This document shows positions 13,650-39,859 of a stretch of DNA of 39,859 nt, piece by piece (the stretch's first letter is position 1; the number at the start of each line of letters is the position of its first letter). The position numbers were made by a program, and so were the translations under genes. Below the pieces are notes generated by a model. The model was given only the letters and a program-made list of their open reading frames with translations. It did not search any database and was not told where the DNA came from. Source of the DNA: an uncultured Azonexus sp. (GTDB taxonomy: Bacteria; Pseudomonadota; Gammaproteobacteria; Burkholderiales; Rhodocyclaceae); contig CALJZP010000250.1 in the NCBI GenBank assembly GCA_937983545.1, positions 1 through 39,859 on the forward strand, written 5' to 3'.

Positions 13650-14738
13650 ATGCCGCTACCGACCTTCGACATCGCCCAGTACCCAGCCCAGCTTGCCGCC
13701 AAGGCGGCCGGATTCGAACGAAATTTCGCCGAGTTCGGCGTCAGCGGCACGGCCGTCCACGCTTCCGACCCTCGGCATTACCGCATGCGGGCCGAATTCG
13801 GCATCTGGCACGATGGCGACAACCTCGATTACACCATGTCGGACCCGGACGATCCCAGGCAGAAAATCCGCCTGGACACCTTCCCGCCGGCAGCCGCGGC
13901 CATCTGCGCCATCATGCCGCGCCTGAAGGAGCGCCTGATCCCCAGCGACACCCTGCGCCGCCGGCTCTTCCAGGTCAATTTCCTCGCCACCCTGAGCGGC
14001 GAGCTGATGATCACGCTGATTTACCACCGGCCGCTCGACGCCGCCTGGGAAGCAGCCGCCCGTGAACTGGCAGGCGAACTCGGCGTGCAACTGATCGGCC
14101 GCAGCCGGGGGCAAAAGGTCGTCATCGACCGCGACTGGCTGCTCGAGGAATTCGAACTCGATGGCCGCCGACTGAAATACCAGCAGGTCGAAGGCAGCTT
14201 CACCCAGCCCAACGGCGAGGTAAACCGCAAGATGCTCGCCTGGGCCTGCCAACAGGCCACCGGCATCGGCGGCAAGCTCGTCGAGCTTTACTGCGGCAAC
14301 GGCAACTTCACCCTGGCGCTCGCCCCGCTGTTCGAACGCGTGCTGGCCACCGAAGTCAGCAAGACATCGGTGCATGCCGCGCAATACAATATCGCCGCCA
14401 ACGCCGTCGACAACATTGACCTGATCCGCATGTCGGCCGAGGAATTCAGCGCCGCGCTCGCCGGCCGCGAAACATTTCAGCGCCTGAAGGACATTGACCT
14501 CGACGCCTTCCGCCAAGCGACCTTGTTCGTCGACCCGCCGCGCGCCGGTCTCGATGACGCCACCGTCGAGCTGGCCCGCAACTTCGATCGCATCCTGTAC
14601 ATTTCCTGCAATCAGGACACGCTGCGCAACAACGTCGCCGCGCTGAACGACAGCCACCGGATCGCCGCCTCGGCCGTCTTCGACCAGTTTCCCTACACGC
14701 ACCACCTCGAATGCGGCGTTCTGCTGCAGCGTCGGTAA
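13650..14738 (+). CDS. trmA: tRNA (uracil(54)-C5)-methyltransferase
   Basis: KLVELYCGNGNFTLALAPLFERVLATEVSKTSV; FVDPPRAGLDD; ILYISCNQDTLRNNV. Start at MPLPTFDIAQYPAQL. Confidence 0.95.
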   Translation: MPLPTFDIAQYPAQLAAKAAGFERNFAEFGVSGTAVHASDPRHYRMRAEFGIWHDGDNLDYTMSDPDDPRQKIRLDTFPPAAAAICAIMPRLKERLIPSDTLRRRLFQVNFLATLSGELMITLIYHRPLDAAWEAAARELAGELGVQLIGRSRGQKVVIDRDWLLEEFELDGRRLKYQQVEGSFTQPNGEVNRKMLAWACQQATGIGGKLVELYCGNGNFTLALAPLFERVLATEVSKTSVHAAQYNIAANAVDNIDLIRMSAEEFSAALAGRETFQRLKDIDLDAFRQATLFVDPPRAGLDDATVELARNFDRILYISCNQDTLRNNVAALNDSHRIAASAVFDQFPYTHHLECGVLLQRR

Positions 14739-14810
14739 CAAACCGTAACAAGCCTGTCCGGCAAAGTGCATTCGCAGATGCTAAAATAGAAGCCGTAACA
14801 TTCGGGACTC

Positions 14811-15422
14811 ATGGCTGTGCGCCGCCTTCTCGCCCTAGCGCTCACTACTTTCTTCTCGCTGACCGCCCTCGCGTCGGAAAGCGACGATCAGGCTTCGTTC
14901 GTCGATGCCTCGATTCCGCACGCCGGTGTGACGATCACCCCGATCCCGATGCCGGCGGCAGTCACCGAAGTGCTGCCACCGATCAACCCGGCGGCCAAGC
15001 TGCGGGCAGCGAAAAAAGCCAAGCAGGCAACCAAGGATGCCCTGCCGGCCACGCTGCTCAGCCGCACCGAACGCCACCAGATGGCGCTGATGGTCGCCAG
15101 ACACAGGAACAACGAGGCACCGGTACATAGCGCCGGCGATGAGGACGAAGGTCAGTCGCACGACGGCGATCATGTGCTGCAGCAGTTCTACAGCCGCCCC
15201 AGGGTAATCAAGGATGACAAGCAGGACGACCCGGAAGCCGACCTGCTGGCGATTTCCGACACCGCCCGCATTCGCCTGATGATGGCCCGCCTCAAGGCGG
15301 TCGAGGCCCATGTGCTGGCACAAGTGCCCGACGATGGCGAAGCCTTGCCGCAGCGCGTCACCGACCGCCTGAAAGAAGCCCGCGCCAAGGCGCTGGAAGC
15401 GCACCGCGCCAGGTTCTCCTGA
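14811..15422 (+). CDS. Hypothetical exported protein
   Basis: 203-aa ORF with signal peptide (RRLLALALTTFFSLTALAS); no recognisable domain. Confidence 0.65.
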   Translation: MAVRRLLALALTTFFSLTALASESDDQASFVDASIPHAGVTITPIPMPAAVTEVLPPINPAAKLRAAKKAKQATKDALPATLLSRTERHQMALMVARHRNNEAPVHSAGDEDEGQSHDGDHVLQQFYSRPRVIKDDKQDDPEADLLAISDTARIRLMMARLKAVEAHVLAQVPDDGEALPQRVTDRLKEARAKALEAHRARFS

Positions 15423-15512
15423 GCGACCTGCTGCGTGCGGGGCCGGAAGCTTCAGCGCATCAAGCCCGCAAACCGTTTCTCCATCGACCGCGTTCGACGC
15501 ACCGCAAATTCC

Positions 15513-15866
15513 ATGCAAAAAATCCTGATCATCGTCCATGCACCTCCCTACGGCAGCGAGCGCTGCCTCTCCGCCCTCCGCCTGGCAACGGCACTGGCCG
15601 GCCGCGACGACAAACCGGAAGTACGCATCTTCCTGATGTCCGACGCCACGGTGCTCGGCCTGCCGAACCAGATCGACGGTGCCGGCAACGGCCTGCAGGG
15701 CATGGTCGAGCAGCTTGTCGCCCAGGGCGTCGACATCCGCCTGTGCCGCACCTGCGCCCTGGCCCGCGGGCTTGGTGAATTGCCGCTGATCCCGGGCACC
15801 GCCATCGGCACCCTGGTCGAACTGGCCGAAGCGACCGTTCTGGCCGACAAGGTCATCACCTTCTGA
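15513..15866 (+). CDS. DsrE/DsrF-like family protein
   Basis: MQKILIIVHAPPYGSERCLSALRLATALAG...FLMSDATVLGLPNQ...VAQGVDIRLCRTCALARGL: DsrE fold pattern. Confidence 0.85.
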   Translation: MQKILIIVHAPPYGSERCLSALRLATALAGRDDKPEVRIFLMSDATVLGLPNQIDGAGNGLQGMVEQLVAQGVDIRLCRTCALARGLGELPLIPGTAIGTLVELAEATVLADKVITF

Positions 15867-15954
15867 GGTGCATCCCGGGCAACTGCTCCGGGTGCCCGCC
15901 GGCTTCCTGTCGGCGGAGTAGAATTCGCCCTTTCACCCCCCGCACCGCACCACG

Positions 15955-17286
15955 ATGACCTTCTCCCAGCTCGGCCTTTCCGCTCCGCTTCTCCAGGCAC
16001 TCGACGCACTCGGCTACAAGGAGCCGACGCCCGTGCAAGCGCAGGCCATTCCTGCCGTACTGGCCGGTCGCGACCTGATGGCGGCCGCGCAGACCGGTAC
16101 CGGCAAGACCGCTGGCTTTGCCCTGCCCCTGCTGCAACGCCTGAGCGAAAGCGAGGAGCCGGTCGCCAGCAACTGCATCCGCGCCCTGGTCCTGGTGCCG
16201 ACGCGCGAACTGGCCGAACAGGTCATGAGCAGCTTCCGCCAATACGGCGAACACCTCGCCGTCAGCTGCTACGCAGCCTACGGCGGCGTCAGCCTCAACC
16301 CGCAGATGATGCGCATGCGGCGCGGCGTCGACATCCTGGTCGCCACCCCCGGCCGACTGATCGACCTGTTCACCAAGAATGCGGTCAAGCTGCGCCAGGT
16401 GCAGACACTGATCCTCGACGAAGCGGATCGCATGCTCGACCTCGGTTTCGCCAACGACCTCGACATCGTTTTCCAAGCCCTGCCCAAGAAGCGCCAGACC
16501 CTGCTCTTCTCGGCCACCTTCTCCGACGAAATCCGCAGCATGGCCAAGGCCCGCCTGCGCGACCCGCTGTCCATTGAGGTCACCCCGCGCAACACCGCCG
16601 CCAAGACGGTCAAGCAATGGGTCGTGCCCTGTGACAAGAAGCGCAAGACCGACCTCTTCCTGTTCATGCGCAAGGACCGCGGCTGGGGCCAGGTGCTGGT
16701 TTTCGTGAAGACCAAGCGCGGCTGTGACGAACTGGTCGGCCGCCTGCAAGCCAGGAAAATTTCCGCCGACACGATCCACGGCGACCGCCCGCAGGCCTCG
16801 CGCCTCAAGGCGCTGGAAGCCTTCAAGGCGGGCGAAGTGGAAATCCTTGTCGCCACGGACGTCGCGGCACGCGGCCTCGACATCGACGACCTGCCGCAGG
16901 TGGTCAATTACGACCTGCCCATCGTCGCCGAAGACTATATCCACCGTATCGGCCGCACCGGTCGTGCCGGCGCCAGCGGCGAAGCGATCTCGCTCGTCTG
17001 CGCCGACGAGGCGCCGCTGCTCGGGGCCATCGAAACCCTGCTCAAGACCAGCCTGAGCCGCGATGAGGAACCGGGTTTCGAACCGACTCATCGTGTTCCC
17101 GCGACAGGCGCCGCCGCCGCACCGCCCAAGCCGAAAAAACCCAAGGTGGCCGGTGGGCGCTCCGGCAAGGGTGCCCCGAGCAACTGGGTCGGCTTCGACG
17201 ACTTTCCGGACAAGCCCGGCCGCCGTCCCGGCCCGCGCCCAACCGGCGGCCCGCGCAGGGGGCCGGCCAAGCAGCGCGGACGATAA
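15955..17286 (+). CDS. DEAD/DEAH box RNA helicase (RhlE-like)
   Basis: Q motif, AAQTGTGKT, PTRELA, DEAD, SAT, HRIGRTGRAG; basic Gly/Pro-rich C-terminus. Confidence 0.95.
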   Translation: MTFSQLGLSAPLLQALDALGYKEPTPVQAQAIPAVLAGRDLMAAAQTGTGKTAGFALPLLQRLSESEEPVASNCIRALVLVPTRELAEQVMSSFRQYGEHLAVSCYAAYGGVSLNPQMMRMRRGVDILVATPGRLIDLFTKNAVKLRQVQTLILDEADRMLDLGFANDLDIVFQALPKKRQTLLFSATFSDEIRSMAKARLRDPLSIEVTPRNTAAKTVKQWVVPCDKKRKTDLFLFMRKDRGWGQVLVFVKTKRGCDELVGRLQARKISADTIHGDRPQASRLKALEAFKAGEVEILVATDVAARGLDIDDLPQVVNYDLPIVAEDYIHRIGRTGRAGASGEAISLVCADEAPLLGAIETLLKTSLSRDEEPGFEPTHRVPATGAAAAPPKPKKPKVAGGRSGKGAPSNWVGFDDFPDKPGRRPGPRPTGGPRRGPAKQRGR

Positions 17287-17422
17287 CCGCCCGGCTCGCT
17301 CCCTTGACCTCCGCCCGCCAGATCGCTTTTCTTGCCGCGCTTGCGGCTAAACCGCAAGGTCCGGTGACTGACTTCCCAGCACCGTCATTCGCCCTCGTTG
17401 GCACATCAGCCAGGATCAGCGC

Positions 17423-19759
17423 GTGAGCATTCTTTCTTCCGCCGTCAAATTTCTCGCTCTGCCTTTAGCCGCAGCGAATTACCGCAAGAACCTGCGGCGC
17501 ACGCTCGTGGCGCTAGGTATCGACGGCATCCTTGCCGTCGGGCTGCTGGTCGGCGCCATGCTGCTCACCGTCCTGCCCAGCCTGCCGTCGTTCGATGTCG
17601 TGACCGACTACCGCCCGAAGATTCCGCTGCGGATTTACACGGCCGATGGCGCACTGCTCGGAGAATTCGGCGACGAACACCGGGACTTCACGCCGATCAA
17701 GGACATTCCCCCGGTCTTGAAGGATGCGCTGCTGGCCATCGAAGACTCGCGCTTCTACGACCACAGCGGCGTCGACTACCGGGGGGTGCTGCGGGCGCTG
17801 GTCGCCGACCTGACCGGCGGTTTCCGCCAGGGAGCGTCGACGATCACCATGCAGGTGGCGCGCACTTTCTTCCTCTCGCAGGAAAAGACCATCAAGCGCA
17901 AACTGACCGAGGTGGTTCTCGCCTATCGCATTGAATCGGCCCTGAGCAAGGACCAGATCCTCGAGCTGTACATGAACCAGATCTACCTCGGCCAGCGCAC
18001 GCACGGCTTCGCCAGCGCGGCACGCACCTATTTCCAGAAGCGCCTGCCAGATCTGACCCTTGCCGAAGCCGCCATGCTCGCCGGCATTCCGCAAAACCCC
18101 GCCAAGCGCAATCCGGCCATCAATCCCTTGCGAGCCAAGGCCCGCCAGCAACTGGTCCTGAAGCGCATGCTGCAGCTGGGCGTGATCACGCAGGCGGAAT
18201 TCAACGAGGCCGTCAGCCAGCCGCTGAAGATCAGCAACACGCTCCGCTTCGAGGCCCATGCCGACCATGTTGCCGAGATGGTGCGCCAGACGGTTTATGC
18301 GCAATACAAGGGCGACACCTACACCCAGGGCTTCAATGTCTATACGACCCTCAACAAGGCCGAACAGAACGCCGCCTACGATTCGCTCCGGCGCAACGTG
18401 CTGGCCTACGACCAGCGCCACGGTTACCGGGGGCCGGAAGGTTTTGTCGACCTGCCGGACAACGCGGACGACCGCGACGAGGCCATTGACCGAATCCTGG
18501 CCAAGCACCCCAGCAGCGACAACCTGATCTCCGCCGTCGTCACCGAGGTCTCCGCCAAGCGCGTGCTGGCCGAGCCCGCCTCTGGCGACACGATCGAGAT
18601 CAAGGGCGACGGTCTGCGTTTCGCAGCGCGCTCACTGCAACCGAACGCCAAGATGGATATCCGGATCCGGGTCGGGTCGGTCATCCGCGTCAGCCAGGAC
18701 GGCAAGGGCCGCTGGGCCATCGGCCAGATGCCGGAAGTCGATGCCGCATTCGTCGCCCTGAACGCCGAGGACGGCTCTTACCGTGCCCTGGTCGGCGGCT
18801 TCGATTTTTCCCGCAACCAGTTCAACCACGTCACCAACGCCTGGCGCCAGCCGGGATCGAGCATCAAGCCCTTCGTCTATTCGGCTGCGCTGGAAAAAGG
18901 CTACTCGCCGGCCACCCTGCTCAACGATGCACCGCTCTCACTGCCCGGCGGCGAAGGCGGCCAGACCTGGGAGCCGCGCAACGACGACGGCTTCGACGGC
19001 CCGATGAGCCTGCGCCAGGCCCTCGCCCGCTCGAAGAACGTCATCGCCGTCCGCCTGCTGCAGGCCATCACGCCGCAATACGCCCGCGACTACCTGCAGC
19101 GTTTCGGTTTCGATGCCGCCAAGCACCCGGCCAACCTGACGCTGACCTTGGGTAGCGGCTCGGTCACCCCGCTGCAGATGGCCGGCGCCTATGCGGTATT
19201 CGCCAATGGCGGCTTCCCGGTCGCCCCCCAGCTGATCCGTAAAATCACCGATGCCCGCGGCAATGTGCTGTGGGAAGCCCCCCCGCCGCCACCGCGCGAC
19301 GATGCGCAACGCGTGATCGACGAACGCAACGCCTTCATCATGGACAGCATGCTGCGCGAGGTGACCCGCAGCGGCACCGGCGCGCAGGCCAGCCAACGCC
19401 TGGGACGCAGCGACCTGGCCGGGAAGACCGGCACCACCAGCGATGCCTTCGACGGCTGGTTTGCCGGCTACAGCGGCAACGTCGTGGCTGTCGCATGGAT
19501 GGGTCACGACCAGCCCAAATCGCTCGGCAACCGCGAATTCGGCGCCACGCTGGCCTTGCCGATCTGGATCGACTACATGCGCCAGGCGCTGTCCGGCAAA
19601 CCGCCCACCGAGCGAAAGGCGCCTCCTGGCGTCTCCTTGGTCGATGGCGACTGGGTCTACGATGAATTCAAGGGCGATGAAGGGATAAAGGCGCTGGACG
19701 TGGAGGTCTCGCCGCTCAAATCCATCTTCGACACCTTGCGGAAGGCGTTTGGCGGCTAA
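17423..19759 (+). CDS. Penicillin-binding protein 1A (bifunctional glycosyltransferase/transpeptidase)
   Basis: GT51 motifs EDSRFYDHSGVDYRG, GASTITMQVAR; transpeptidase SSIKPF and KTGTTSDAFDGWF. GTG start. Confidence 0.95.
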   Translation: MSILSSAVKFLALPLAAANYRKNLRRTLVALGIDGILAVGLLVGAMLLTVLPSLPSFDVVTDYRPKIPLRIYTADGALLGEFGDEHRDFTPIKDIPPVLKDALLAIEDSRFYDHSGVDYRGVLRALVADLTGGFRQGASTITMQVARTFFLSQEKTIKRKLTEVVLAYRIESALSKDQILELYMNQIYLGQRTHGFASAARTYFQKRLPDLTLAEAAMLAGIPQNPAKRNPAINPLRAKARQQLVLKRMLQLGVITQAEFNEAVSQPLKISNTLRFEAHADHVAEMVRQTVYAQYKGDTYTQGFNVYTTLNKAEQNAAYDSLRRNVLAYDQRHGYRGPEGFVDLPDNADDRDEAIDRILAKHPSSDNLISAVVTEVSAKRVLAEPASGDTIEIKGDGLRFAARSLQPNAKMDIRIRVGSVIRVSQDGKGRWAIGQMPEVDAAFVALNAEDGSYRALVGGFDFSRNQFNHVTNAWRQPGSSIKPFVYSAALEKGYSPATLLNDAPLSLPGGEGGQTWEPRNDDGFDGPMSLRQALARSKNVIAVRLLQAITPQYARDYLQRFGFDAAKHPANLTLTLGSGSVTPLQMAGAYAVFANGGFPVAPQLIRKITDARGNVLWEAPPPPPRDDAQRVIDERNAFIMDSMLREVTRSGTGAQASQRLGRSDLAGKTGTTSDAFDGWFAGYSGNVVAVAWMGHDQPKSLGNREFGATLALPIWIDYMRQALSGKPPTERKAPPGVSLVDGDWVYDEFKGDEGIKALDVEVSPLKSIFDTLRKAFGG

Positions 19760-19766
19760 GGCTGCA

Positions 19767-19792
19767 AAAAGCCGCATGACCTGCGGCTTTTC
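19767..19792. terminator. Intrinsic terminator after PBP1A
   Basis: aaaagccgcatgacctgcggctttt: stem aaaagccgca/tgcggctttt. Confidence 0.75.
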
Positions 19793-19853
19793 CGATTGAA
19801 GCAGCTTGCCGCTTCCAGGCAAGCAAAGCTGGAGGCGCGAGAACGCGGTTGAT

Positions 19854-20786
19854 CTAGGTCTGCCGGACCGTTCCGCTCCCGGATTGGGCTTTGACCCAGG
19901 CGTTCAACGCTTTCACGCCATCGTCCAGACTGGAAAAAAAATTCACGCCAGGTACCGGGGCGATTCGACTGACGCCTCCCCCACCGACCCAGAGTCCGAT
20001 GTCGTCCGGCAACATCCGACGCAACTGTTCAAGATGCGCGGGAATGTGTCTATGGGGAAAAGCCGTCGAAAACGAGAGAGCCACGATATCGGCGCGATGA
20101 GCTTGCGCTGCGTGGGCAATCTCGATCAGGGGCATCTGGGTACCCAGCGGAATGCACTCGGCCCCTTCCAGGGCAAATAACGCTTCAGCCATCAGCAAGC
20201 CGAGTCCGTGCTGTTCGTCGGGCACGCTGGTCAGCACGATGCGCGGCGAACCGATGGCCGCCGGCAGCGTTGCAATCGCCTGGCGCAACACCCGTTTGCT
20301 CAGTTCGGTGAACAGGTGCTCCTCGAATACCTTGAAGCGTCCGTCTTCCCAGGCATCGCCGACCCGCCGGCTGAGCGGCGCGACGATGTCCTGGACAAAA
20401 TGCTGCAACCCCAGGCGCGCCAGGCGTTGCTGGAGCGTTTGCAGATAGGCATTGGCATCGTGCTGCTTGATCAACGCCAGCATCTCCGACAGACCCTGTT
20501 CGTCGACCGTAACGGCCTCGCTGTAGGCCGGGCGGGCGTAGCGCGGCGCCAGCTCGGCCAAGGCCTCGACGGGAAGGGCAAGCAGCTTTCCCGGGCGATG
20601 TCCTTGATCCATCAGGCGTTTGATCTGGCGCAGGCGCTCGACCTGCTCGGACGGATAGGCGCGTTCGCCATTCGCGTCGCGCAATGGCAGCGGAAAGCCG
20701 TAACGCCGCTCCCACATGCGCAGGACGTCCTTGGACAGGCCGGTATCACGTTCGACGGCGGCGATGCTGAAATTTGGTGCGTTCAT
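19854..20786 (-). CDS. MerR-family transcriptional regulator with B12-binding domain (CarH/LitR-like)
   Basis: N-terminal MerR HTH (FSIAAVERDTGLSKDVLRMWERRYGFPLPLRDANGERAYP); W-x9-EH (WEDGRFKVFEEH); cobalamin His loop TSVPDEQHGLGLLM; Rossmann-like C-terminus. ATG at 20786. Confidence 0.92.
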   Translation of the reverse strand: MNAPNFSIAAVERDTGLSKDVLRMWERRYGFPLPLRDANGERAYPSEQVERLRQIKRLMDQGHRPGKLLALPVEALAELAPRYARPAYSEAVTVDEQGLSEMLALIKQHDANAYLQTLQQRLARLGLQHFVQDIVAPLSRRVGDAWEDGRFKVFEEHLFTELSKRVLRQAIATLPAAIGSPRIVLTSVPDEQHGLGLLMAEALFALEGAECIPLGTQMPLIEIAHAAQAHRADIVALSFSTAFPHRHIPAHLEQLRRMLPDDIGLWVGGGGVSRIAPVPGVNFFSSLDDGVKALNAWVKAQSGSGTVRQT

Positions 20787-29676: not shown

Positions 29677-29766
29677 CGCCCTGATCTTGAAAGGGAATTG
29701 CAGCCAGCGGTTGAATCCGCAGAACAAAGCCGACCATTCTGCATTCGCCAGCTTCCCACCAACGAA

Positions 29767-29797
29767 AAAGCCCGACCAATCAGGCCGGGCTTTGTTT
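29767..29797. terminator. Intrinsic terminator between DUF2721 and the ALDH gene (convergent)
   Basis: aaagcccgaccaatcaggccgggctttgttttt: GC stem agcccg/cgggct with T-tract on plus and A-tract (aaaaa) on the other side. Confidence 0.75.
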
Positions 29798-29814: not shown

Positions 29815-31320
29815 TCAAACCATCATCAACACTGATTTCTGCTCCAGGTAGGCATCGAGTGCCGCCCGGCCCATCTCCTTGCCGAACCCAGACTGCTTGT
29901 AGCCGCCGAATGGCAGGGCCGGGTCGAGCATGTTGTGGCAATTGACCCAGACCGTGCCCGACTTGATCTTGGGGATCAGGCGATGGACGCGCGACAGGTC
30001 GTTCGACCAGATGGAAGCCCCGAGCCCGAACGGCGTGTCGTTGGCCCATGCGGCAACCTGGTCGAGGTCGTCGTAGGGCATGGCGACGACGACCGGACCG
30101 AAAATCTCCTCTTGCACGACACGGGCCTTCTGGTCCACCTTGGCGAGCACGGTCGGCTTGACGAAGTAGCCCTTGTCGCCTGCCCTGCCGCCGCCGGCGA
30201 CCACCTCGGCCCCCTGCTGGCGACCGATGTCGATGTAGCCACAGACGCGGTCAAGTTGCTCGCGCGAGACCAGCGGGCCGAGCTGGGCGCTCGGGTCCAT
30301 GCCGTGGCCGATGGTCAGGGCGTTGGCGTGGTCAGCCAGATCGGCGACGACGCGGTCGTAGTTTTTCTTGTGCACATAGAGGCGAGAGCCGGCACAGCAC
30401 ACCTGGCCCTGGTTGAAGTAGATCGCCTGCGCGGCGCCCCCGGCTGCCACGCCAGGGTCGCAATCTTCCAGCACGATGACCGGCGACTTGCCGCCCAGTT
30501 CGAGCGTGATGCGCGTCATGTTGTCCATCGCCGCCTTGCCGATCAGCTTGCCGACTTCGGTCGACCCGGTAAAGGTCAGCTTGTTGACGCCCGGATGACG
30601 CGTCAGCGGTGCGCCGACCGATGGGCCATCACCGGTGACGACGTTGACCACCCCTTCCGGGAAGCCGGCCTGGAGAACCAGCTCGGCCAGGTAGAGCGCG
30701 CTCAGCGGCGTCTGCTCGGCCGGCTTGAGAACCACGGTGCAGCCGGTTGCCAGGGCCGGGGCCAGCTTCCACGAAGCGAGCAGCAGCGGGAAGTTCCAGG
30801 CGACGATGGCGCCGACGACGCCGACCGCTTCCTTGCGGGTGTAGCCGACAAATTCGTTCTGCGGCGCAAAGGGGATGGACACATCGAGCGTGCTGCCCTC
30901 GATCTTGGTCGCCCAGCCAGCCATGTAGCGGAAGTAGCTGGCCGACAGCGCAACATCGACGGCTTCGGCGATGGCCACCGACTTGCCGTTGTCGAGCGAT
31001 TCGATTTCGGCCAGCGTGCGAGCATTGGCTTCGATCAGGTCGGCCAGGCGCAACAGCAGGCGCTGGCGCTGATCGGGACGCATCCTGGCCCAACCGGGGG
31101 CTTCGAAGGCCTGGCGCGCGGCCTGGACGGCACGGTCCACATCGGCTTCGGTGGCGGCCGGCACGGTGGCGAGCAGGCTTTCGTCGGCCGGGTTGAGTAC
31201 CTCCAGCGTCTGGCCGTTGCTGCTGGCGACCCACTGCCCGCCAATCAGCATGCGATGGTTGCGACGCGCCATGAATTCGGTCGTCGCCGTGGTGAGAACG
31301 GGGGGTTGCGATGCGTTCAT
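29815..31320 (-). CDS. Aldehyde dehydrogenase (NAD+), phenylacetaldehyde-type candidate
   Basis: VGAIVAWNFPLLLASWKLAPALATGCTVVLKPAEQTPLSAL; FTGSTEVGKLI; LELGGKSPVIV; NQGQVCCAGSRLYVH. Confidence 0.94.
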   Translation of the reverse strand: MNASQPPVLTTATTEFMARRNHRMLIGGQWVASSNGQTLEVLNPADESLLATVPAATEADVDRAVQAARQAFEAPGWARMRPDQRQRLLLRLADLIEANARTLAEIESLDNGKSVAIAEAVDVALSASYFRYMAGWATKIEGSTLDVSIPFAPQNEFVGYTRKEAVGVVGAIVAWNFPLLLASWKLAPALATGCTVVLKPAEQTPLSALYLAELVLQAGFPEGVVNVVTGDGPSVGAPLTRHPGVNKLTFTGSTEVGKLIGKAAMDNMTRITLELGGKSPVIVLEDCDPGVAAGGAAQAIYFNQGQVCCAGSRLYVHKKNYDRVVADLADHANALTIGHGMDPSAQLGPLVSREQLDRVCGYIDIGRQQGAEVVAGGGRAGDKGYFVKPTVLAKVDQKARVVQEEIFGPVVVAMPYDDLDQVAAWANDTPFGLGASIWSNDLSRVHRLIPKIKSGTVWVNCHNMLDPALPFGGYKQSGFGKEMGRAALDAYLEQKSVLMMV

Positions 31321-31436
31321 ACAGTCTCTCCTCTGTGGTCTTGGTTTGGATAAGTCAGGCCGCCAATGCGGTAAAAAAATCGGTCGATACCCGCCGGAGC
31401 GCCAAAAATGGCGAACCGGCGAGGCAAACCGGTGGG

Positions 31437-32411
31437 CTACTCGCGCACGACCATGCCCACTGCCGAGAAAAGCAGTTCGCCCTTGGCCTGCGGGACGATG
31501 GCGGTGACCGCGAGCCGGTCGGGGCGAACAATGGTCTCGAAATGCTGACCGCCATCCTTGCTGAGCAGCGTGGTACCGGCCAGGCCGACCACGCGTACCC
31601 CCCCGTCGGCGCGTTGGGCGATACCGGTCAGCGATTGCTGCGTGCCGCTGACCAAGTGCTTCCAGTGCTCGCCGCGGTCGGTACTGCGGTAGAGATGGCC
31701 GCGCATGCCACCGAGCAGCAGGCTGCCGTCGGCCAGTTCGGCACCTGCCCAGAACGAGCCCTTGTTGTCGGTCTGGATCGCCTGCCAGGTCAGGCCGGCA
31801 TCGGTCGAGCGCAGCACGGTACCGGCTTCGGCGGCGACCAGCAGCAAGCCATCGCGGCCCGGCACGATGGACAGCAGGTGGCGCTCCCCGGCCTCGCCAT
31901 CGACCAGCTGACGTTCGCTCCAGGTCTTGCCGCCATCGCGGGTTTCCAGGGCCAGACCGAATTGCCCCACCGCCAGCCCGCGCTGGACATCGGCAAACCA
32001 GATGCCCATCAGTACCTGATCCTGGCCGCGCATTTCGCGCAGCACATTCCAGGACTTGCCACCATCGACGGTGGCGATCACCGTGCCGTCGTGGCCGGCT
32101 GCCCAGCCACGCAGAGCGTCGAGAAAGAATACCGAGGTCAGCGGCGCCCGGGTCGGGACTTCGCCTTGTACGAAACGCTCACCGTCGTCGGTATAGATCA
32201 CGAAGCCATAATCGCCGACCGCCACCGTCCGGTTACCAGCCTTGGTTGCCGCGTAGATCGGCGCCTTGGTCGGCATCGTCAAATGGGGGGCGGTGCGAAA
32301 GTAGTCGGGGGCTGCCTTGCCCTCACCCGGCGCGGCAGCCAGTTTCAATGACAGCGGCGCCAACAAGGCCAGACCGGTCGCCAGGGCAAGGGTTTGAAGT
32401 TTGAATTTCAT
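31437..32411 (-). CDS. YCF48/BNR-like repeat exported protein
   Basis: Signal peptide; repeated VGDYGFVIYTDDGERF, AAGHDGTVIATVDGGKSWN, VGQFGLALETRDGGKTW, LRSTDAGLTWQAI, YRSTDRGEHWKHL. Confidence 0.85.
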   Translation of the reverse strand: MKFKLQTLALATGLALLAPLSLKLAAAPGEGKAAPDYFRTAPHLTMPTKAPIYAATKAGNRTVAVGDYGFVIYTDDGERFVQGEVPTRAPLTSVFFLDALRGWAAGHDGTVIATVDGGKSWNVLREMRGQDQVLMGIWFADVQRGLAVGQFGLALETRDGGKTWSERQLVDGEAGERHLLSIVPGRDGLLLVAAEAGTVLRSTDAGLTWQAIQTDNKGSFWAGAELADGSLLLGGMRGHLYRSTDRGEHWKHLVSGTQQSLTGIAQRADGGVRVVGLAGTTLLSKDGGQHFETIVRPDRLAVTAIVPQAKGELLFSAVGMVVRE

Positions 32412-32424
32412 GCCGCTTTCTCCA

Positions 32425-34797
32425 TCAGTGGCCGATGGCCGGTGCCTTGACCGGGCCACGACGCGGGAACAGGGAATCGAGCTTGACCGCAAAGGCCGGC
32501 AGCACCGTGATCGCCATCAGCATGTTCACCATGAACATGAAGGTGAGCAGGATGCCCATGTCTGCCTGGAACTTGAGGTCCGAGAAGGCCCAGGTGGCGA
32601 CGCCCACCGACAGCGTGATGGCGGTGAAGATGGTGGCCACGCCAACCTCGCGCAGCGCGCCTTCGAGCGCCACCTTCATCGTCTCGCCATGCGAGAGATG
32701 AATCAGCAGCCGGTTGTAGATGTAGAAGGCGTAGTCGACGCCGATACCGGTGGCCAGCACCATGACTGGGAGCGTGGCGACGGTCAGGCCGATGTCGAGT
32801 TCTTTCATGAACCAGTAGCCGAGAAAGGTAGCCAGCGTCAGCGGCACGCAGCAGGCCAGCATGGCACGCCAATCGCGGTAGGCGAACAGCACGAGGACGA
32901 CAATGGCGCCATACACATAGAGCATCATCGGCAATTCGCGTGCCTCGACTTCCTCGTTGGTCGCCGCCAGCACGCCGACGTTGCCGGAAGCGAGGCGGAC
33001 CTCGATGCCGAGCGGCTTGCCATCGTAACGGTCGCGGAAGGATTTGACGGCTTCGATAGCCGGTTCGATGCTGGTCGCCTTGTGGTCGGCCAGATAGACG
33101 TTGGCGGCCATCATGGTGCACGCCCGGTTGAACAGGCCGCCGGCCTCCGGCAGGTAACCGACGGCTACCTGCAGTGCCTTGCTGTCACGGGGCAGCGCGA
33201 TCATCTTCGGATTGCCCTCGTTGAGGCCGGCATTGGCGAATTTGGCCAGCGCCGACAGCGACTGAACCGACAGCACACCCGGCACCTGCGACATGTGCAG
33301 CGTGAATTGCTCGATATAGTTGAGCACGTCGTAGTTGTTGCACGAGTCGTTGGGCGTCTCGAATACCACCGTCAGCACGTCCATGCCGAGATCGAAGCGT
33401 TTGACGATGTTCTCGATGTCCTGGTTGTAGCGGGCATCCGGACGCAGTTCAGGCGCCCCAGGCTGCAGCGCACCGATGTGGCGGCCATGGCTCTGCCACA
33501 CCGCCACGCCGAGCAGGATGGCCGCCACGGCGAGCACCAGGCGGGCATGGTTGATGTCGGCGATGAAGCCGAGGCGCTGGATGATTTCCCCGCGCCTGGC
33601 CTGGATGGCCTCCAGATGCAGTGCATACTCGCGCGAGAAGCGGAAGTACGACGCGGCGAGCGGCAACATGATCAGGTTGGTGACGATCTTGTAGCCAACG
33701 CCGATCGAGGCGGTGATACCCAGTTCGCGGATCATCGGGATCGGGATCAGCACCAGCGTGATGAAGCCGACGAAAGCGGTGACCAGCGCCAGCGTACCGG
33801 GAATGAACAGGCTGGAAAAGCTCTCGCGGGCGGCATCAATGGAATCGGCACCACCGGCCACTGCCTTGGAAATGGCATTGATCTGCTGGACGCCGTGCGA
33901 GACGCCGATGGCGAAGACCAGGAAAGGTACCAGGATGGCCAGCGGGTCCAGCCCGTAGCCGAGCAGCGTCAGCGTGCCGAACTGCCAGACGACGGACACC
34001 ATCGAGCAGAAGATCGGCAGTGCGGTCAACATCAGCGAGCGGCAGTACCAATAGACGGCCAGCGCGGTGAGCAGCGTGGCCAACGCGAAGAACACGGCGA
34101 CGCCCTTGGCGCCATCGGCGATGTCGCCGATCTGCTTGGCGAAACCGACGATCTCGATCTCGTGAGTCGGCGTTTCGTACTTGACCCGGATGTCCTGCTC
34201 CAGCTTGCCGGCCAGGGCGAGGTAGTCGAGCTGTTCGTGCGTGCCTGGATCTTCCTCGAGCAGGTCGGCGATGATCATCGCGGCGCTGCCGTCGTTGGCA
34301 ACCAGGCTGCCGGTATAGCCGCCGCGTGCCGCACGGTCGCGGATCTGGGTGATCTGGGTAGCGTTCAGGGCATCCGGCGTCACCGTTCCGCCAATCACAT
34401 CCTCGGCCTGAAAGCCCTCTTCCGTCAGCTCATAGACGCGGGTATTCGGCGTCCACAGCGATTGCACCGAGCGACGATCGACGCCGGGCAGGTAGAGAAC
34501 GGCTTCGGTCACCTCGTGCAGCTTTTTCAGCGACTCGGGTGTCCAGATGTTGCCATCGCGGGCACGGACGACAACCATCACCCGGTTGGAGCCGAACAAC
34601 TGGGTACGGTACTTGAAAAAGGTGTCGGTATATTCGTGCCCGACCGGGAGTTGCTTGTCGAAGCCGGCCGACATGTGCAGCCGGGATGCCAGCAGACCCA
34701 TCACGGCGGTCAACGCCAACAGGACCGCCAGCGTGACCAGCCGGTAGCGGAAGAAGAAGTCTTCCAGGCGTTTGACGAAACGGACAATGCTCACCAT
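32425..34797 (-). CDS. MMPL/RND superfamily transporter
   Basis: 790-aa protein with two large periplasmic loops and RND-like TM blocks (PFLVFAIGVSHGVQQINAI; ATGIGVDYAFYIYNRLLIHLSHG). Confidence 0.9.
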   Translation of the reverse strand: MVSIVRFVKRLEDFFFRYRLVTLAVLLALTAVMGLLASRLHMSAGFDKQLPVGHEYTDTFFKYRTQLFGSNRVMVVVRARDGNIWTPESLKKLHEVTEAVLYLPGVDRRSVQSLWTPNTRVYELTEEGFQAEDVIGGTVTPDALNATQITQIRDRAARGGYTGSLVANDGSAAMIIADLLEEDPGTHEQLDYLALAGKLEQDIRVKYETPTHEIEIVGFAKQIGDIADGAKGVAVFFALATLLTALAVYWYCRSLMLTALPIFCSMVSVVWQFGTLTLLGYGLDPLAILVPFLVFAIGVSHGVQQINAISKAVAGGADSIDAARESFSSLFIPGTLALVTAFVGFITLVLIPIPMIRELGITASIGVGYKIVTNLIMLPLAASYFRFSREYALHLEAIQARRGEIIQRLGFIADINHARLVLAVAAILLGVAVWQSHGRHIGALQPGAPELRPDARYNQDIENIVKRFDLGMDVLTVVFETPNDSCNNYDVLNYIEQFTLHMSQVPGVLSVQSLSALAKFANAGLNEGNPKMIALPRDSKALQVAVGYLPEAGGLFNRACTMMAANVYLADHKATSIEPAIEAVKSFRDRYDGKPLGIEVRLASGNVGVLAATNEEVEARELPMMLYVYGAIVVLVLFAYRDWRAMLACCVPLTLATFLGYWFMKELDIGLTVATLPVMVLATGIGVDYAFYIYNRLLIHLSHGETMKVALEGALREVGVATIFTAITLSVGVATWAFSDLKFQADMGILLTFMFMVNMLMAITVLPAFAVKLDSLFPRRGPVKAPAIGH

Positions 34798-34887
34798 GGG
34801 GATTGAACCTCGTAATTTTTATCGTCCTCCTTGCGGAGGTCGGGCGACCCCGTGTGCGAGACAGGCAGGGCCGCCCTGTGAAGCGGA

Positions 34888-36636
34888 TCAGAAGGTGTAG
34901 GAAACCGTCATCGATGCGATATCGCGGTCACGCATCAGGTTCAGGTTGCCGCCTCCAAAGAAGCTGCTGTAGCCCAGACCGACCTTCCACTGGTTGTGGT
35001 AGTCGAAGTTCAGGCCGACCGCCAGCACCTTGCGCCCTTCCACGAAGGGAATGGTGTTCGGGCTGGTACCCTTCACGTCGTGATAGAAGTCGACGATAGG
35101 CGTCGCCGTCCAACCCGAATTGAAGACGTTGGCGTAGGTCAGGCTGACTTCCATGACGTAACCCCAAGAGGTCTTGGTTGGCAGCTCGTAGTTGTTCAGC
35201 AGGTACGGGATTTCGCCGTTCAACTTGAGGCCCGGGTAATGCGCCACGGCCACTTCGGCCATGAAGGCACCGTCGGCAGCCCCGAGCGCGCGTGTCACTT
35301 CCGGCGGCAGCCAGGTGAAGGCCGTGACGTGCCCCTGGTACTTCTTCTCGTTCACGTAGCCGTTGGCCACGGTGTTGCTCGGCACGCTAAACACGCTGTA
35401 GCGGCCAGACAGCGGCACCGTCGGGTCGATGGCCACGCTGTCGCGCGGACGATAGGACAATTCCGCACCGAAGGCCCAGTCGCCGACCTTGGTGTTGGCC
35501 GAAAAGCCGAACAATTCCTTGTTCTCGCCATACTGTTCGACGACGGTGACGCCGCCAAACACGTTGTTGACCGCAGGATTCAGCTTGAAGCCGACGAACG
35601 GCAGCTTATCGTGGTAGCGAATGTAATACGCGGCGAACTCGGTATCTGCCCCCGGTGGCTTGTAGCGGAGGTTGAAGCCGTACTGGCCGTTGTTGGAAGG
35701 TTTGGTCTGCTCGACCGGGATGAAACCGCCCGCTGCGCTGATGCCATCCAGCGACCGGCCGCGCGTCGGGTCGAAGTCGCCAATCCCGCCGTAGCTGGAC
35801 GGAATGAACGCCCCACGCTTGCCCCCCTTGCCGAGAAAATCAGCGGTCGACCAATAAGTGCCGGCAGGATCGAGCTTGAAGCTGTTCCAGGCGAACTGGT
35901 AATACATTTCGGTCGAAAAGCCGCCGCCCAAGGCCATATTCAGCGAGGCCATCGGGGCCGGGATGAGGATTTCCTTGACCTGGGTGCCAGGAATATGAGC
36001 CTTGCGCAGATCGAAGGCGTGAATGGTGTTGATGCCGCCGAGGATGAAGATGTCCTCGCCCCAGTTGATGACCTGGTTACCGAGCTTGAACTTGGCCGAG
36101 TTGTCGCCGACCTTGAAGTCCTTGGACACCCAAAGATCAAGCAGCGAGACGTTTTGTGTCATCGCCTTCTTGGCCTCTTCGTCTAGCGGTGTACGGGCCG
36201 TATTGGCGGCGGCGAAGTCGCTAGACCACGTCACCCGGCCGAGCGCCGCCCAGTTGCCGCGCTCGCCGAGTGCCAGTTCGTGCGTCCCCTTGAGCACGGC
36301 GGCGACGATATCGCCCTTCTTGTAGTTCAGGTTGCCATCGTCGATGTTGGTGTAGTTGAAGTCAGGATTCGACGTGGCGCCCTGCCCTGCGCCGTTGACG
36401 AGTTCGCCAAGGCGGCCGCTGGTCGGCACCGAACCGCCGTTATTGTTGCCGACCATGGAATTGTTCGGCGACTGCATACGGCGCTGGACACCGAGCGAGA
36501 TGGTCGAATCCAGCGAGCCGCTGACGCCATTATCGAGGTCGAATTTGAATGCCCGCGCCTGCCCTGCCACCCCAAGGCCGAGGGTGGCGATGAGCAGAGC
36601 CGGTATGCTGCGCTTGAAGCTTGTATGTTTATGCAT
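34888..36636 (-). CDS. DUF1302 family protein (predicted outer-membrane beta-barrel)
   Basis: Signal peptide, FKFDLDNGVSGSLDSTISLGVQRRMQ, amphipathic beta pattern, C-terminal RDRDIASMTVSYTF. Confidence 0.9.
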   Translation of the reverse strand: MHKHTSFKRSIPALLIATLGLGVAGQARAFKFDLDNGVSGSLDSTISLGVQRRMQSPNNSMVGNNNGGSVPTSGRLGELVNGAGQGATSNPDFNYTNIDDGNLNYKKGDIVAAVLKGTHELALGERGNWAALGRVTWSSDFAAANTARTPLDEEAKKAMTQNVSLLDLWVSKDFKVGDNSAKFKLGNQVINWGEDIFILGGINTIHAFDLRKAHIPGTQVKEILIPAPMASLNMALGGGFSTEMYYQFAWNSFKLDPAGTYWSTADFLGKGGKRGAFIPSSYGGIGDFDPTRGRSLDGISAAGGFIPVEQTKPSNNGQYGFNLRYKPPGADTEFAAYYIRYHDKLPFVGFKLNPAVNNVFGGVTVVEQYGENKELFGFSANTKVGDWAFGAELSYRPRDSVAIDPTVPLSGRYSVFSVPSNTVANGYVNEKKYQGHVTAFTWLPPEVTRALGAADGAFMAEVAVAHYPGLKLNGEIPYLLNNYELPTKTSWGYVMEVSLTYANVFNSGWTATPIVDFYHDVKGTSPNTIPFVEGRKVLAVGLNFDYHNQWKVGLGYSSFFGGGNLNLMRDRDIASMTVSYTF

Positions 36637-36661
36637 GATTTACCCCTCCGTGCGCTTCAGA

Positions 36662-38032
36662 TCAGCGATCGCCGGCGCGGCGCAGTTCGTCTGACTCGAA
36701 GCGCTTGACATCGATGCGCCCCTCCTGCCCGGCCAGCCAGTCGGTGTGCTTGGCTTCCTGGGTCGAGTTCTCGGCCATGTAGCGGTTGACCGTCAGATCC
36801 CAGGACATGAATTCCTGGCTGACGCAGGCGCCGAGTTCGACGGCCGGGTACAGCGAAGCTTCCATGACACGCCACAGCTTGCCCTGCGCGTCGTACTGGT
36901 CGGCGGCAAGGATCATCCAGGTGTCCTCGTCAAGGTAGAAAGTGCGCTTGGAGAACATGTGGCGCATGCCCTGCTTGACCGTCGCCTCGACCTTCCAGAC
37001 GCGGTGTACTTCATAGCGCATCAGGTCGCGCTTCGGATACATGCCCTCATACACTTCCTTGGCCGGACGCTTGGCGACGAACTTGAAGCTGTTGTACGGC
37101 ACGATCATTTCCTGCTTGCCGACCAGTTTCCAGTCGTAGCGGTCGAGGGCACCGGAGAACATCGGGTACTGGTCGGCGGTTTCGAGGTTTTCGTAGCCGG
37201 GGATCGGGTTGTCGTACTCGAAGGCCGGCAGGCGGCGCACGCGGCGCTGGCCCGGGAAATACATCCACGCATCGTTGGACTTGCCGAGGAAGTAATGCGC
37301 CAGGATGATTTCACCGGTTCGCGAAGCCGGGGCCGTCGCCAAGTTGAGCAGCTTCATCTGGACGCCGCCGACATCCTCGATGGACTTGGCCTTGGGCGAA
37401 GCAAACGGCGTGATCACGACTTGGTCCTGGGCCAGGCCGTAGAAGCTGCCGTCCGGATTGATGAAGTTGGTCTGGTAATACTCGATGCGGCCTTCACCCT
37501 GCCAGCGCAGGCGGTGGTTCCAGACCGCCTCGGCACCGTTCTTCGGTATGGCGAACGGGAAACCGCCGCCGACCGCCTGGGCCAGGTTGTCTTTGCCATC
37601 CGAGGTCAGCTTGGCGGTAGTAGCGTTGATTTTGGTCTGGCCGTACACGGAATCCGGGTAGCCGCAACTGCGGTGCGTCGGGTAGACGTCCATCCGATAG
37701 CCTTTGCGTGTCTTGATCAACTCGATCTGACCAGCAGAGAGCTTGTCCTTGTACTTATCGACATTGCTGGCATCGATCGAATACAAGGGTTTGTCAGCAG
37801 CAAACGGGTCGACGCGGGCGTCGCCCAGCTTGTGCTTGCCCTTGGGCAGGCCGCCTTCCCACTTCGGAATGCTGCCGTCCTTGTTGCCGGCGCGTTCGGC
37901 GCCGACCGGTGTCAAATCCTTGCCAAGCTGGGCGGCTTCCTGCTCGCTGACTGCAGCGAGCGCCGGACCGGACAGGCCGATGAGGCCTGCAACGATCAAC
38001 GCCAGCGGCTTGGCTCTATGGTTGGGGTGCAT
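36662..38032 (-). CDS. DUF1329 family protein
   Basis: AAQLGKDLTPVGAERAGNKDGSIPKWEGGL; FLGKSNDAWMYFPGQRRVRRLPAFEYDNPIPG; YEVHRVWKVEATVKQGMRHMFSKRTFYLDEDTWMI. Confidence 0.92.
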   Translation of the reverse strand: MHPNHRAKPLALIVAGLIGLSGPALAAVSEQEAAQLGKDLTPVGAERAGNKDGSIPKWEGGLPKGKHKLGDARVDPFAADKPLYSIDASNVDKYKDKLSAGQIELIKTRKGYRMDVYPTHRSCGYPDSVYGQTKINATTAKLTSDGKDNLAQAVGGGFPFAIPKNGAEAVWNHRLRWQGEGRIEYYQTNFINPDGSFYGLAQDQVVITPFASPKAKSIEDVGGVQMKLLNLATAPASRTGEIILAHYFLGKSNDAWMYFPGQRRVRRLPAFEYDNPIPGYENLETADQYPMFSGALDRYDWKLVGKQEMIVPYNSFKFVAKRPAKEVYEGMYPKRDLMRYEVHRVWKVEATVKQGMRHMFSKRTFYLDEDTWMILAADQYDAQGKLWRVMEASLYPAVELGACVSQEFMSWDLTVNRYMAENSTQEAKHTDWLAGQEGRIDVKRFESDELRRAGDR

Positions 38033-38077
38033 GATTGTGGTCCTCCTGTCGAAAAATGAATGCCCCTGGTTCGAGTG

Positions 38078-38506
38078 TTACTCGATTGAAATGCCCTGCG
38101 CTTTCAGCTCGCTGATGATCGCGGCCCGCCTTCCGGGCACGTCGGCCAAGCGATTGGCACGCAGTTGTCGTACTTCTTGTTCGGTATAGGGAAGCGTGCC
38201 GGCGGGAACTTCCGCCGCACTGAATTGCTGCAGCATCCAGTTCATCATCACCGCCACCTCGGCATCGGTCATGCTGGTCTGCGAGGTGCCGGGCACCTGA
38301 ATCAGGAATTCACGACCATATTTCGCCTTCGGAAAATGCCCGATCGAGCCGCGCATGTCAGGAATGCCGACGCCTGGATTGCCAGCCCCGTCCGGGCCAT
38401 GGCAACCGGAGCAATGCAGCATGTAATTGACCTTGGGCGAACCGCCGGCAGCCATCACCGGGCTGGCCAGCAGTGCCACCGTCATGGCAGCGATCGATCG
38501 TTTCAT
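38078..38506 (-). CDS. c-type cytochrome (monoheme, CSGCH)
   Basis: Signal peptide plus NYMLHCSGCHGPDGAGNPGVGIPDMRG; ATG at 38506. Confidence 0.87.
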   Translation of the reverse strand: MKRSIAAMTVALLASPVMAAGGSPKVNYMLHCSGCHGPDGAGNPGVGIPDMRGSIGHFPKAKYGREFLIQVPGTSQTSMTDAEVAVMMNWMLQQFSAAEVPAGTLPYTEQEVRQLRANRLADVPGRRAAIISELKAQGISIE

Positions 38507-38508
38507 GA

Positions 38509-38967
38509 TCAACCTCCTGCGGGCAGGCGCCCGCGCATTTTGTGGGTTTCATTGGGGCTCCCGCCGGCCTGGCGGGCTATCGCCAGTTGATCCGGCGTCA
38601 GCCAGCCCAGTTCGGCGACCTTCTCGTAACTACCGAGAACATGGCGCAGCACCGCTGCCAGCTCGGTATCAGACAAGGTCGCGAAGGAAGGCATATTGCC
38701 GGTGTAGCGAACGCCGTCGACCGTGATGCTACCGACCATGCCAGTCAAGGCGACGCGCAACAGGTAGCGGCGTCCCTCCTCGCTGGCTGCATGGCGGCCG
38801 ATGTTGCCGACCAACGGCGGTGCGATACCGGGTGCGCCGACCGCACCCGGCTGGTGGCAAGCCTGGCAATGGGCGACGAAGAGCGCAGCCCCATCGGCTG
38901 CTCCCTGGGCTTGCGCGGATGCGCAGGCAACCAACAAACCGAGAGTTGCAAATACCCTGCGTGCCAT
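38509..38967 (-). CDS. c-type cytochrome (monoheme, CQACH)
   Basis: Signal peptide plus GAALFVAHCQACHQPGAVGAPGIAPPLVGN; Met-ligand candidate NMPSFATLSDTELAAVLRHV. Confidence 0.9.
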   Translation of the reverse strand: MARRVFATLGLLVACASAQAQGAADGAALFVAHCQACHQPGAVGAPGIAPPLVGNIGRHAASEEGRRYLLRVALTGMVGSITVDGVRYTGNMPSFATLSDTELAAVLRHVLGSYEKVAELGWLTPDQLAIARQAGGSPNETHKMRGRLPAGG

Positions 38968-38970
38968 GAC

Positions 38971-39495
38971 TCAGCTCTTGCCGTCGCCAACGCCGACGAT
39001 GGCGGCCACCGTGCAGTTGTACATGTTGCTGCTGTTGGCCATGCACCAGTTGATGTCGTTGTGGACCCCCATGCGGTAGCCCGGACGCTCGCGCTCGTTG
39101 CGGTTGCAACCGCAATGGCCGCAGGCGGTGGCGCCACAGCAGTCGTTATAGCTGATCAGGTAGTCCTTGCCATCGGCCGGGTTGCGGCAGGTACCGACCC
39201 AGGTGACCTTGGAGATTTCGGTACCCGGCGGGCAGCTGGAAATCGTGCCGCCGCAGCAGGTGCAGAGGAAGCCGTCGAGCGCGCAGTAACGCCAGTAGTC
39301 GCAAGTGGTGTCGTCGTTGGCCTTGCTCGGGGCGGCGGCATGGGCGCCCTGCCCGATCCGGTCGAAAGGCAGCACCGGCAGCACGAAGGCCGTGCCGACG
39401 AAGACCTTGCCAAGCTTGGCCAGCGCGCTGCGTCGCGACGAAGACTGGGCTACCCGACGGGTCTTGTGTTCAAAAAAATCATCGAACCATTTCAT
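38971..39495 (-). CDS. aauA: Aromatic amine dehydrogenase small (TTQ) subunit
   Basis: CDYWRYCALDGFLCTCCGG...CPPGTEISKVTWVGTCRNPADGKDYLISYNDCCGATACGHCGCNRNERERPGYRMGVHNDINWCM; Cys-rich fold, TTQ Trp positions, Tat-like SSRRSALAKLG leader. ATG at 39495. Confidence 0.92.
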   Translation of the reverse strand: MKWFDDFFEHKTRRVAQSSSRRSALAKLGKVFVGTAFVLPVLPFDRIGQGAHAAAPSKANDDTTCDYWRYCALDGFLCTCCGGTISSCPPGTEISKVTWVGTCRNPADGKDYLISYNDCCGATACGHCGCNRNERERPGYRMGVHNDINWCMANSSNMYNCTVAAIVGVGDGKS

Positions 39496-39523
39496 TTTTA
39501 GTTTCTCCTTGCTGGGGCACGCC

Positions 39524-39859
39524 TCAGGCGCGTTGATCGATGTATTCCTGGATCGAGGCCACACCGGCCTCCTTGGCGGCGAACAGGCTTTCCAGCTGTT
39601 CGCGGGAATTGACCAGGCCTTTGCCGCGGATCGCACCGTCCTCGCCGATCAATACGGCATACGGCAGCTTGGCGATGCGATAAGTCATGCCGAGGTCGGT
39701 GGAGAGCGCATACGGGAAATCCTGCAGCTCGGCCTTCTTGTAAAACTCGGCATGCGCCGGCAATTCGCCGTCGCTGGCCAGGGCTACATCAAGCCAGGCC
39801 GATTCATCCTGACGGATGGACTTAAGGACCGGCAGCAGCTTCTTGCACACCGGGCAGGT
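39524..39859 (-). CDS. aauD: MauD/AauD-like thioredoxin-fold maturation protein (N-terminus outside window)
   Basis: Frame open to the window edge: (T)CPVCKKLLPVLKSIRQDESAWLDVALASDGE...FPYALSTDLGMTYRIAKLPYAVLIGEDG; CPVC redox motif, adjacent to aauA. Confidence 0.85.
   Translation of the reverse strand, partial: TCPVCKKLLPVLKSIRQDESAWLDVALASDGELPAHAEFYKKAELQDFPYALSTDLGMTYRIAKLPYAVLIGEDGAIRGKGLVNSREQLESLFAAKEAGVASIQEYIDQRA

Follow-up and report, generated by a model that had tools for sequence, protein, structure and literature searches.

The 39,859-nucleotide stretch analysed here (the window) is the complete contig C250 of a 3.66-Mb draft genome (326 contigs, 86% complete) of an uncultured Azonexus sp. 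Its minus strand, read from 39859 to 29815, carries nine co-directional genes, in which the downstream part of an aromatic amine dehydrogenase (AADH) operon is followed by a four-gene envelope cassette and a gene for an aldehyde dehydrogenase (ALDH). All nine had been proposed in an initial annotation made from the letters alone, and each was recovered exactly where that annotation had placed it, from the positions of the open reading frames (ORFs) and their Pfam and NCBIfam matches. We show here the gene content and order of this operon, its completeness (by synteny), the identity of the branch to which its cassette belongs, and the non-random association of that branch with two periplasmic amine dehydrogenases. 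The gaps between the genes, from aauD' to ALDH, are 28, 3, 2, 45, 25, 90, 13 and 116 bp, and purine-rich stretches resembling ribosome-binding sites are found 5' of most starts.

The first gene, aauD' (39524 to 39859), encodes the C-terminal 111 amino acids of a mauD-type thiol:disulfide accessory protein (NCBIfam MauD, E = 1e-31). Its product is 59% identical to the AauD of a second operon in the same genome, on contig C82, and synteny with Dechloromonas sp. CZR5 agrees with the assignment. The second gene, aauA (38971 to 39495), encodes the 174-residue AADH small subunit that carries the tryptophan tryptophylquinone (TTQ) cofactor (PF02975, E = 1.5e-53). In a comparison with the PDB, AADH chains come first (2agl, E = 3e-52), with methylamine dehydrogenase (MADH) behind. 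Residues W98, W149, D117 and T161 (numbering of 38974 to 39492) match the AADH chain in the alignment, the two TTQ tryptophans being 51 residues apart. The aligned aspartate and threonine correspond to the catalytic residues of the Alcaligenes faecalis enzyme, and the two tryptophans are those that form TTQ. The leader, read by eye, is of the twin-arginine type (SSRRSALAKL). An assignment to MADH was rejected, the score of 161.9 bits being below the TIGR02659 cut-off of 196.85, which two small subunits encoded in other members of the class pass with more than 260 bits. Judged by these alignments and scores, the window's small subunit is of the AADH type and not of the MADH type.

Two mono-haem cytochromes c follow, each having one CXXCH motif: CQACH in the first (38509 to 38967; Cytochrom_C and Cytochrome_CBB3 matches) and CSGCH in the second (38078 to 38506; Cytochrom_C). 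One or both are present at most AADH loci, and the first is the probable electron acceptor. The last gene of the run (29815 to 31320) encodes an NAD(P)-type ALDH (PF00171) resembling phenylacetaldehyde dehydrogenase. It matches the NCBIfam StyD model with E = 4e-220, yet below the cut-off of that model, and its top PDB match is a phenylacetaldehyde dehydrogenase (4o5h), in agreement with the earlier suggestion that this enzyme takes the next step after AADH. No signal peptide was seen in it by eye. An intrinsic-terminator-like hairpin, AGCCCGGCC-TGATT-GGTCGGGCT-TTTT, was found on inspection of the same strand 3' of the ALDH gene (29765 to 29791) and may close the operon.

The cassette between the cytochromes and ALDH consists of a DUF1329 protein (AmeB family; 36662 to 38032; PF07044, E = 1e-124), a DUF1302 protein (AmeA family; 34888 to 36636; PF06980, E = 6e-149), a resistance-nodulation-division (RND) transporter of the HAE3/MMPL type (AmeD family; 32425 to 34797; PF03176), and a YCF48-like beta-propeller (AmeC family; 31437 to 32411; PF14870, E = 8e-21). 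The first two have signal sequences, as does the propeller by eye. The transporter is 790 residues long, has two large loops, and matches the HAE3 model TIGR00921 with E = 2e-44, below its cut-off. The coordinates of the propeller gene start at an ATG; a TTG at 32492 is a possible alternative.

The modelled DUF1329 protein (predicted local distance difference test, pLDDT, 91) has LolA3 as its best Foldseek match (9tp6, E = 6e-16) and also matches the DUF1329 structure 4z48. It is predicted to have a LolA/LolB-type fold and to be a periplasmic carrier. The DUF1302 model (pLDDT 91) matches OmpF/OpdK-type porins with E of about 1e-10 and is predicted to be an outer-membrane beta-barrel of the porin/Occ type; its sole sequence match in the PDB, tenascin-X, was taken as spurious. 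These two folds would fit the movement of a small hydrophobic molecule across the envelope in either direction. The RND protein matches no PDB sequence at E < 0.001. A pair D688-Y689 in its second half and a pair S300-H301 in its first half are kept in nearly all members of both RND branches described below, and because these Asp-Tyr and Ser-His pairs are conserved the protein is probably a proton-driven pump. None of the nine genes encodes a membrane fusion protein or a TolC-type duct, and DUF1302 folds like a porin. A tripartite HAE1 exporter of the AcrAB-TolC type was rejected on the absence of those genes from the nine.

The N-terminus of aauD falls in an assembly gap between C250 and contig C211. 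The latter carries aauB on its minus strand (L170:187-1332) and, where the contig ends, the first part of aauE. It also has an AraC-family gene (L170:1891-2910) in divergent orientation, for whose product the nearest NCBIfam models are EutR and AndR, both below cut-off. Together, C211 and the window end are colinear with a single region of the Dechloromonas sp. CZR5 genome (L008); the two alignments extend over 8.0 kb (95.8%) and 3.9 kb (93.4%), and by comparison with CZR5 about 640 bp are absent between the two contigs. The aauB and aauE genes that had been expected upstream are thus found, by synteny across a gap that the assembly leaves unclosed. On this synteny, the full order of the operon is aauB-aauE-aauD-aauA-cyt c-cyt c-DUF1329-DUF1302-RND-YCF48-ALDH, plus the divergent AraC-family gene. 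It resembles the aauBEDA cluster of A. faecalis in the order aauB-E-D-A (complete in C82 and in L008), in the TTQ tryptophans and in having a mono-haem cytochrome c downstream, but differs from it in having two cytochromes c and then, in the same run of genes, the DUF1329-DUF1302-RND-YCF48 cassette and ALDH. To our knowledge, the A. faecalis aau cluster has no such cassette.

The second operon, on C82 (L003 1343-16492), contains aauB, aauE, aauD, aauA and two cytochromes c, followed by a gene resembling those of membrane proteins and by the same cassette; its ALDH is from a different subfamily than that of the window. The shared genes are in the same order, and their products are between 35% (DUF1302) and 61% (AauA) identical to those of the window. 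Between the cytochromes and DUF1329 of C82 lie the gene of the 352-residue membrane-like protein (L003:11634-12689), which matched no NCBIfam family, and a plus-strand ORF (10095-11399), which had no Pfam match.

A separate branch of AmeABCD-like cassettes

The function of the envelope module had been described in the initial annotation as unassigned. This no longer holds for the gene families, since the same four make up AmeABCD, the subject of a deletion study in Castellaniella defragrans (PMC6394551). Deletion lowered the tolerance to monoterpenes and raised the accumulation of Nile Red, and AmeABCD was proposed to be an outward RND complex (PMC6394551). As in AmeABCD, the DUF1302 barrel (AmeA), DUF1329 (AmeB), YCF48 (AmeC) and HAE3 RND (AmeD) are encoded together in the window. 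The order is different: DUF1329-DUF1302-RND-YCF48 in the window as against DUF1302-DUF1329-YCF48-RND in AmeABCD. The window's branch also differs in having an AraC regulator, ALDH and the linkage to amine dehydrogenases.

In 121 genomes of the window's family, searched with the window RND as the query, the identities of the RND proteins were bimodal: 28 copies lie at 57-100%, and the next best is at 44%. Cassettes were assigned to groups by their identity to the window and C82 RNDs, and the group of other cassettes was collected, non-randomly, from high-scoring DUF1329 matches. Within these definitions the branch has the gene order DUF1329-DUF1302-RND(-YCF48) in 60/60 loci, with YCF48 inside the stretch in 53, whereas the order of the other cassettes is DUF1302-DUF1329-YCF48-RND in 28/28, two more lacking a DUF1302 match. 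Of the branch loci, 47 of 57 have a relative of the AraC regulator, as against 0 of 30 other loci. Among the 43 loci having enough sequence, 28 encode an ALDH 3' of YCF48, and these ALDHs fall into two different subfamilies.

In RND trees, which were quick and gave long-branch warnings, the branch is a single clade with an SH-like approximate likelihood ratio (SH-aLRT) support of 100. It is separate from the RNDs of the AmeABCD-order cassettes included in the trees. The window's clade is about 40% identical to those of the same family, a comparison made with these cassettes and not with AmeD itself, which is also outside the trees. By gene order and phylogeny, what is new here is a separate branch of AmeABCD-like cassettes, which has a gene order of its own and shows, within one family, a strong association with periplasmic amine dehydrogenases. 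No description of a linkage between the cassette and an amine dehydrogenase was found in the literature searched, most subscription papers being outside its reach.

Related clusters occur in hydrocarbon degraders. The "Nanopod" cluster of benzene degraders is similar in its porin-like, DUF1329, YCF48 and MMPL genes, and the phenanthrene cluster of Delftia in its DUF1329 and DUF1302 genes; both are linked to hydrocarbon degradation (PMC13101534, PMC3110197). They differ in their substrates, and no amine dehydrogenase has been reported with them. In a benzene-degrading culture such a cluster shows high expression, and Delftia is reported to grow less well on phenanthrene when a DUF1329 gene is deleted (PMC13101534). 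In Pseudomonas putida, growth on Tween 20 requires DUF1302/DUF1329 genes and the functionally correlated PP_2018 and PP_2019 (PMC10866462).

Association with AADH and QHNDH

A scan of 80 AauA-homologous loci with the window and C82 proteins found the cassette directly 3' of the aau genes in many Rhodocyclales and some Burkholderiales. At two loci (L060 and L077) it is instead divergent and upstream of aauB. The same gene run is present in many other genomes and is therefore not a chance arrangement; this recurrence, together with the diverged second copy on C82, rules out that the module is a chance neighbour of the window's aau genes.

Among the 121 family genomes, the TTQ small subunit is present in 13 (14 loci), each of which also encodes the branch RND. 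At 13 of the 14 loci a DUF1329 gene is located on the same strand at a distance of 1-3 kb, and at the remaining one (genome G055) the contig ends fall exactly where DUF1329 is missing. The second enzyme is the quinohemoprotein amine dehydrogenase (QHNDH, encoded by qhn/pea genes), which is likewise a periplasmic quinone-cofactor amine dehydrogenase; both enzymes act on a primary amine and release an aldehyde in the periplasm. It is otherwise unrelated to AADH, having a cysteine tryptophylquinone (CTQ) cofactor and a radical-SAM gene beside it, and it was not found in the window's genome. QHNDH is present at 19 loci in 16 of the 121 genomes, of which 11 have the branch RND. At about 7 of the 19 loci a cassette of the same branch is situated within about 12 kb, either downstream, upstream or divergent. 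In one genome (G100; L178, C1:3057500-3076500) the cassette is close to one QHNDH locus but not to another.

When the two enzymes are taken together, 22 genomes have both an enzyme and the branch RND, 5 the enzyme only, 2 the RND only and 92 neither (Fisher p = 2.6e-17, odds ratio 202, the p value being only nominal because the sampled genomes are related). The AmeD-type RND, used as a control in the same genomes, gives p = 3e-4 and an odds ratio of 5.7. Independent support for the association comes from the RND tree, whose well-supported branches impose a minimum of five changes in the linkage to QHNDH. Across the class, the branch RND is found in 3 of 369 genomes, and each of the three encodes a TTQ amine dehydrogenase, though on another contig than the RND in the case of G211. 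The proposal that all DUF1329/RND cassettes are AADH-associated was ruled out, since those in the AmeABCD order are not. One locus in a metagenome-assembled genome (L051) has cassettes of both kinds, an AmeABCD-type one (RND 39%) divergently upstream of aauB and one of the window's branch downstream (889-5737; 14520-20134).

Outside the family, 14 members of the branch were listed on plasmids and chromids (H1-H14). Thirteen were read, all but H10, with flanks of 12 kb in general; those of H7, at a record end, were shorter, and those of H9, which has the same RND sequence as H8, were 3 kb. In just one of the 13, on a plasmid of Cupriavidus pinatubonensis, an aau operon is present, about 5 kb from the cassette. 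Since most plasmid members lack both enzymes within the flanks read, the branch is not restricted to AADH and QHNDH, which rules out an exclusive relation; within the family sampled, the strong co-occurrence holds. Of the tie between module and AADH put forward in the initial annotation, the recurrent, non-random partnership is thus borne out, while its specificity for AADH is not, in view of the QHNDH-linked loci and of the plasmids. A few annotated plasmid loci lie near DAO or Amino_oxidase flavoproteins, RidA or PhyH, which is suggestive only. The Pseudomonas aeruginosa megaplasmids p12939-PER (L222) and pPA272 (L232) carry branch cassettes with mutually identical RNDs, and the one on p12939-PER is near genes for PhyH and a DAO-type flavoprotein.

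Possible role of the cassette

The families in the operon suggest a pathway that would start in the periplasm, where an aromatic amine (2-phenylethylamine or tyramine, for example) would be oxidised by AADH, with an aldehyde and ammonia as the products. The electrons would leave through the cytochromes c, and the aldehyde would be converted to an arylacetate by ALDH in the cytoplasm. The proton-driven RND, its YCF48 propeller partner, the LolA-like DUF1329 carrier and the DUF1302 barrel would form one cassette, which would clear the toxic hydrophobic aldehyde (or the amine) from the periplasm and inner membrane across the outer membrane. Such clearance would let the amine dehydrogenase run without poisoning the envelope. 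We place first the reading that the aau operon has been extended by a dedicated AmeABCD/HAE3-kind cassette acting outward in this way, and regard it as evenly balanced between right and wrong. An aldehyde would be a likelier substrate than the charged amine because the wider cassette family is known to act on hydrophobic compounds. Outward transport would be likelier than inward, this being the direction indicated by HAE3 proteins of known function and by the AmeABCD deletion. The branch is tied, in one family, to two periplasmic reactions that are chemically similar and catalysed by structurally unrelated enzymes, so that one would expect the cassette to act in both settings on the amine, on the aldehyde or on the two of them.

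Several observations weigh against outward clearance. Aryl-alkylamines are small and charged and the aldehydes can cross membranes unaided, so that a pump is not obviously needed. The porin/Occ-type DUF1302 barrel is unlike TolC, and the continuous exporter pictured for AmeABCD may therefore be wrong. The requirement for related genes in growth on Tween 20 and phenanthrene also fits uptake (PMC10866462, PMC13101534). In addition, no cassette lies near the AADH operons found in Achromobacter and a number of other groups among the 80 loci, 5 of the 16 QHNDH genomes lack the branch RND, and 12 of the 13 plasmid cassettes (Burkholderiales, Azoarcus, Pseudomonas) have neither AADH nor QHNDH in their flanks.

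Uptake, as implied by the uptake/oxidation unit of the initial annotation, is a serious rival, because the outer-membrane part resembles an uptake-type channel and ALDH is cytoplasmic, although on balance we consider it improbable. The barrel and the LolA-like carrier would bring the amine or the periplasmic aldehyde inward, and the RND would then place it in the inner membrane, or pass it through, for use by ALDH. The likeness of DUF1302 to porin/Occ channels (among them OpdK, a vanillate channel), that of DUF1329 to LolA carriers, the position of ALDH 3' of the cassette at most loci, and the P. putida genes required on Tween 20 are consistent with this. General porins let small charged amines through, which argues against it, as does the outward transport to the periplasm by HpnN, an HAE3-type RND of known function (PMC6394551). 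A narrower form, which we find less probable still, is that the cassette is a trans-envelope aldehyde shuttle serving both the TTQ and the CTQ enzymes, in which DUF1329 would collect the periplasmic aldehyde and the RND would deliver it inward to ALDH. If this were true, an RND system would act as a catabolic importer.

About as improbable as this form is a general protection of the envelope, in which the cassette would keep the hydrophobic intermediates of several pathways out of the membrane, with no specificity for amines, and would be co-encoded because the pathway makes such compounds. The plasmid members from Burkholderiales and Pseudomonas that lie near other oxidases (DAO, PhyH) or near none suggest such a role, as do the AmeD-type relatives, which act on monoterpenes and are also found in benzene degraders (PMC6394551, PMC13101534). 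Unlike the AmeD-type control, however, the branch is almost confined within the family to genomes with AADH or QHNDH (22/24), and the three branch-bearing genomes found across the class, each with a TTQ enzyme, also speak against it. Joint inheritance or transfer without a functional link, to which the close neighbourhood of many AADH-linked copies on the RND tree might point, is very improbable given the variety of arrangements (downstream of aau, divergent from aauB, varied around qhn, and at a distance on the Cupriavidus plasmid) and the repeated origin of the link to the unrelated QHNDH.

DUF1329, DUF1302 and HAE3 RND/YCF48 genes are widespread in degraders of hydrophobic compounds, and the branch narrows the question of their substrate and direction. 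Loci of this kind are present in the cultured strains Zoogloea oleivorans Buc, Z. dura, Dechloromonas denitrificans, D. hortensis and Derxia, which makes the branch directly open to gene deletion as a means of deciding between export, import and protection.

Other genes in the window and genome

The window's genome, at 86% completeness, yielded no MauG candidate for TTQ maturation. Its sole CCP_MauG match (C249, L168 392-2472) adjoins an oxyR-like gene, reads as a cytochrome c peroxidase and was rejected. Convergent to the operon, the plus strand of the window carries neighbouring ORFs between 25533 and 29098 that appear, by eye, MFS-like, lipoprotein-like, SDR-like and SnoaL-like.

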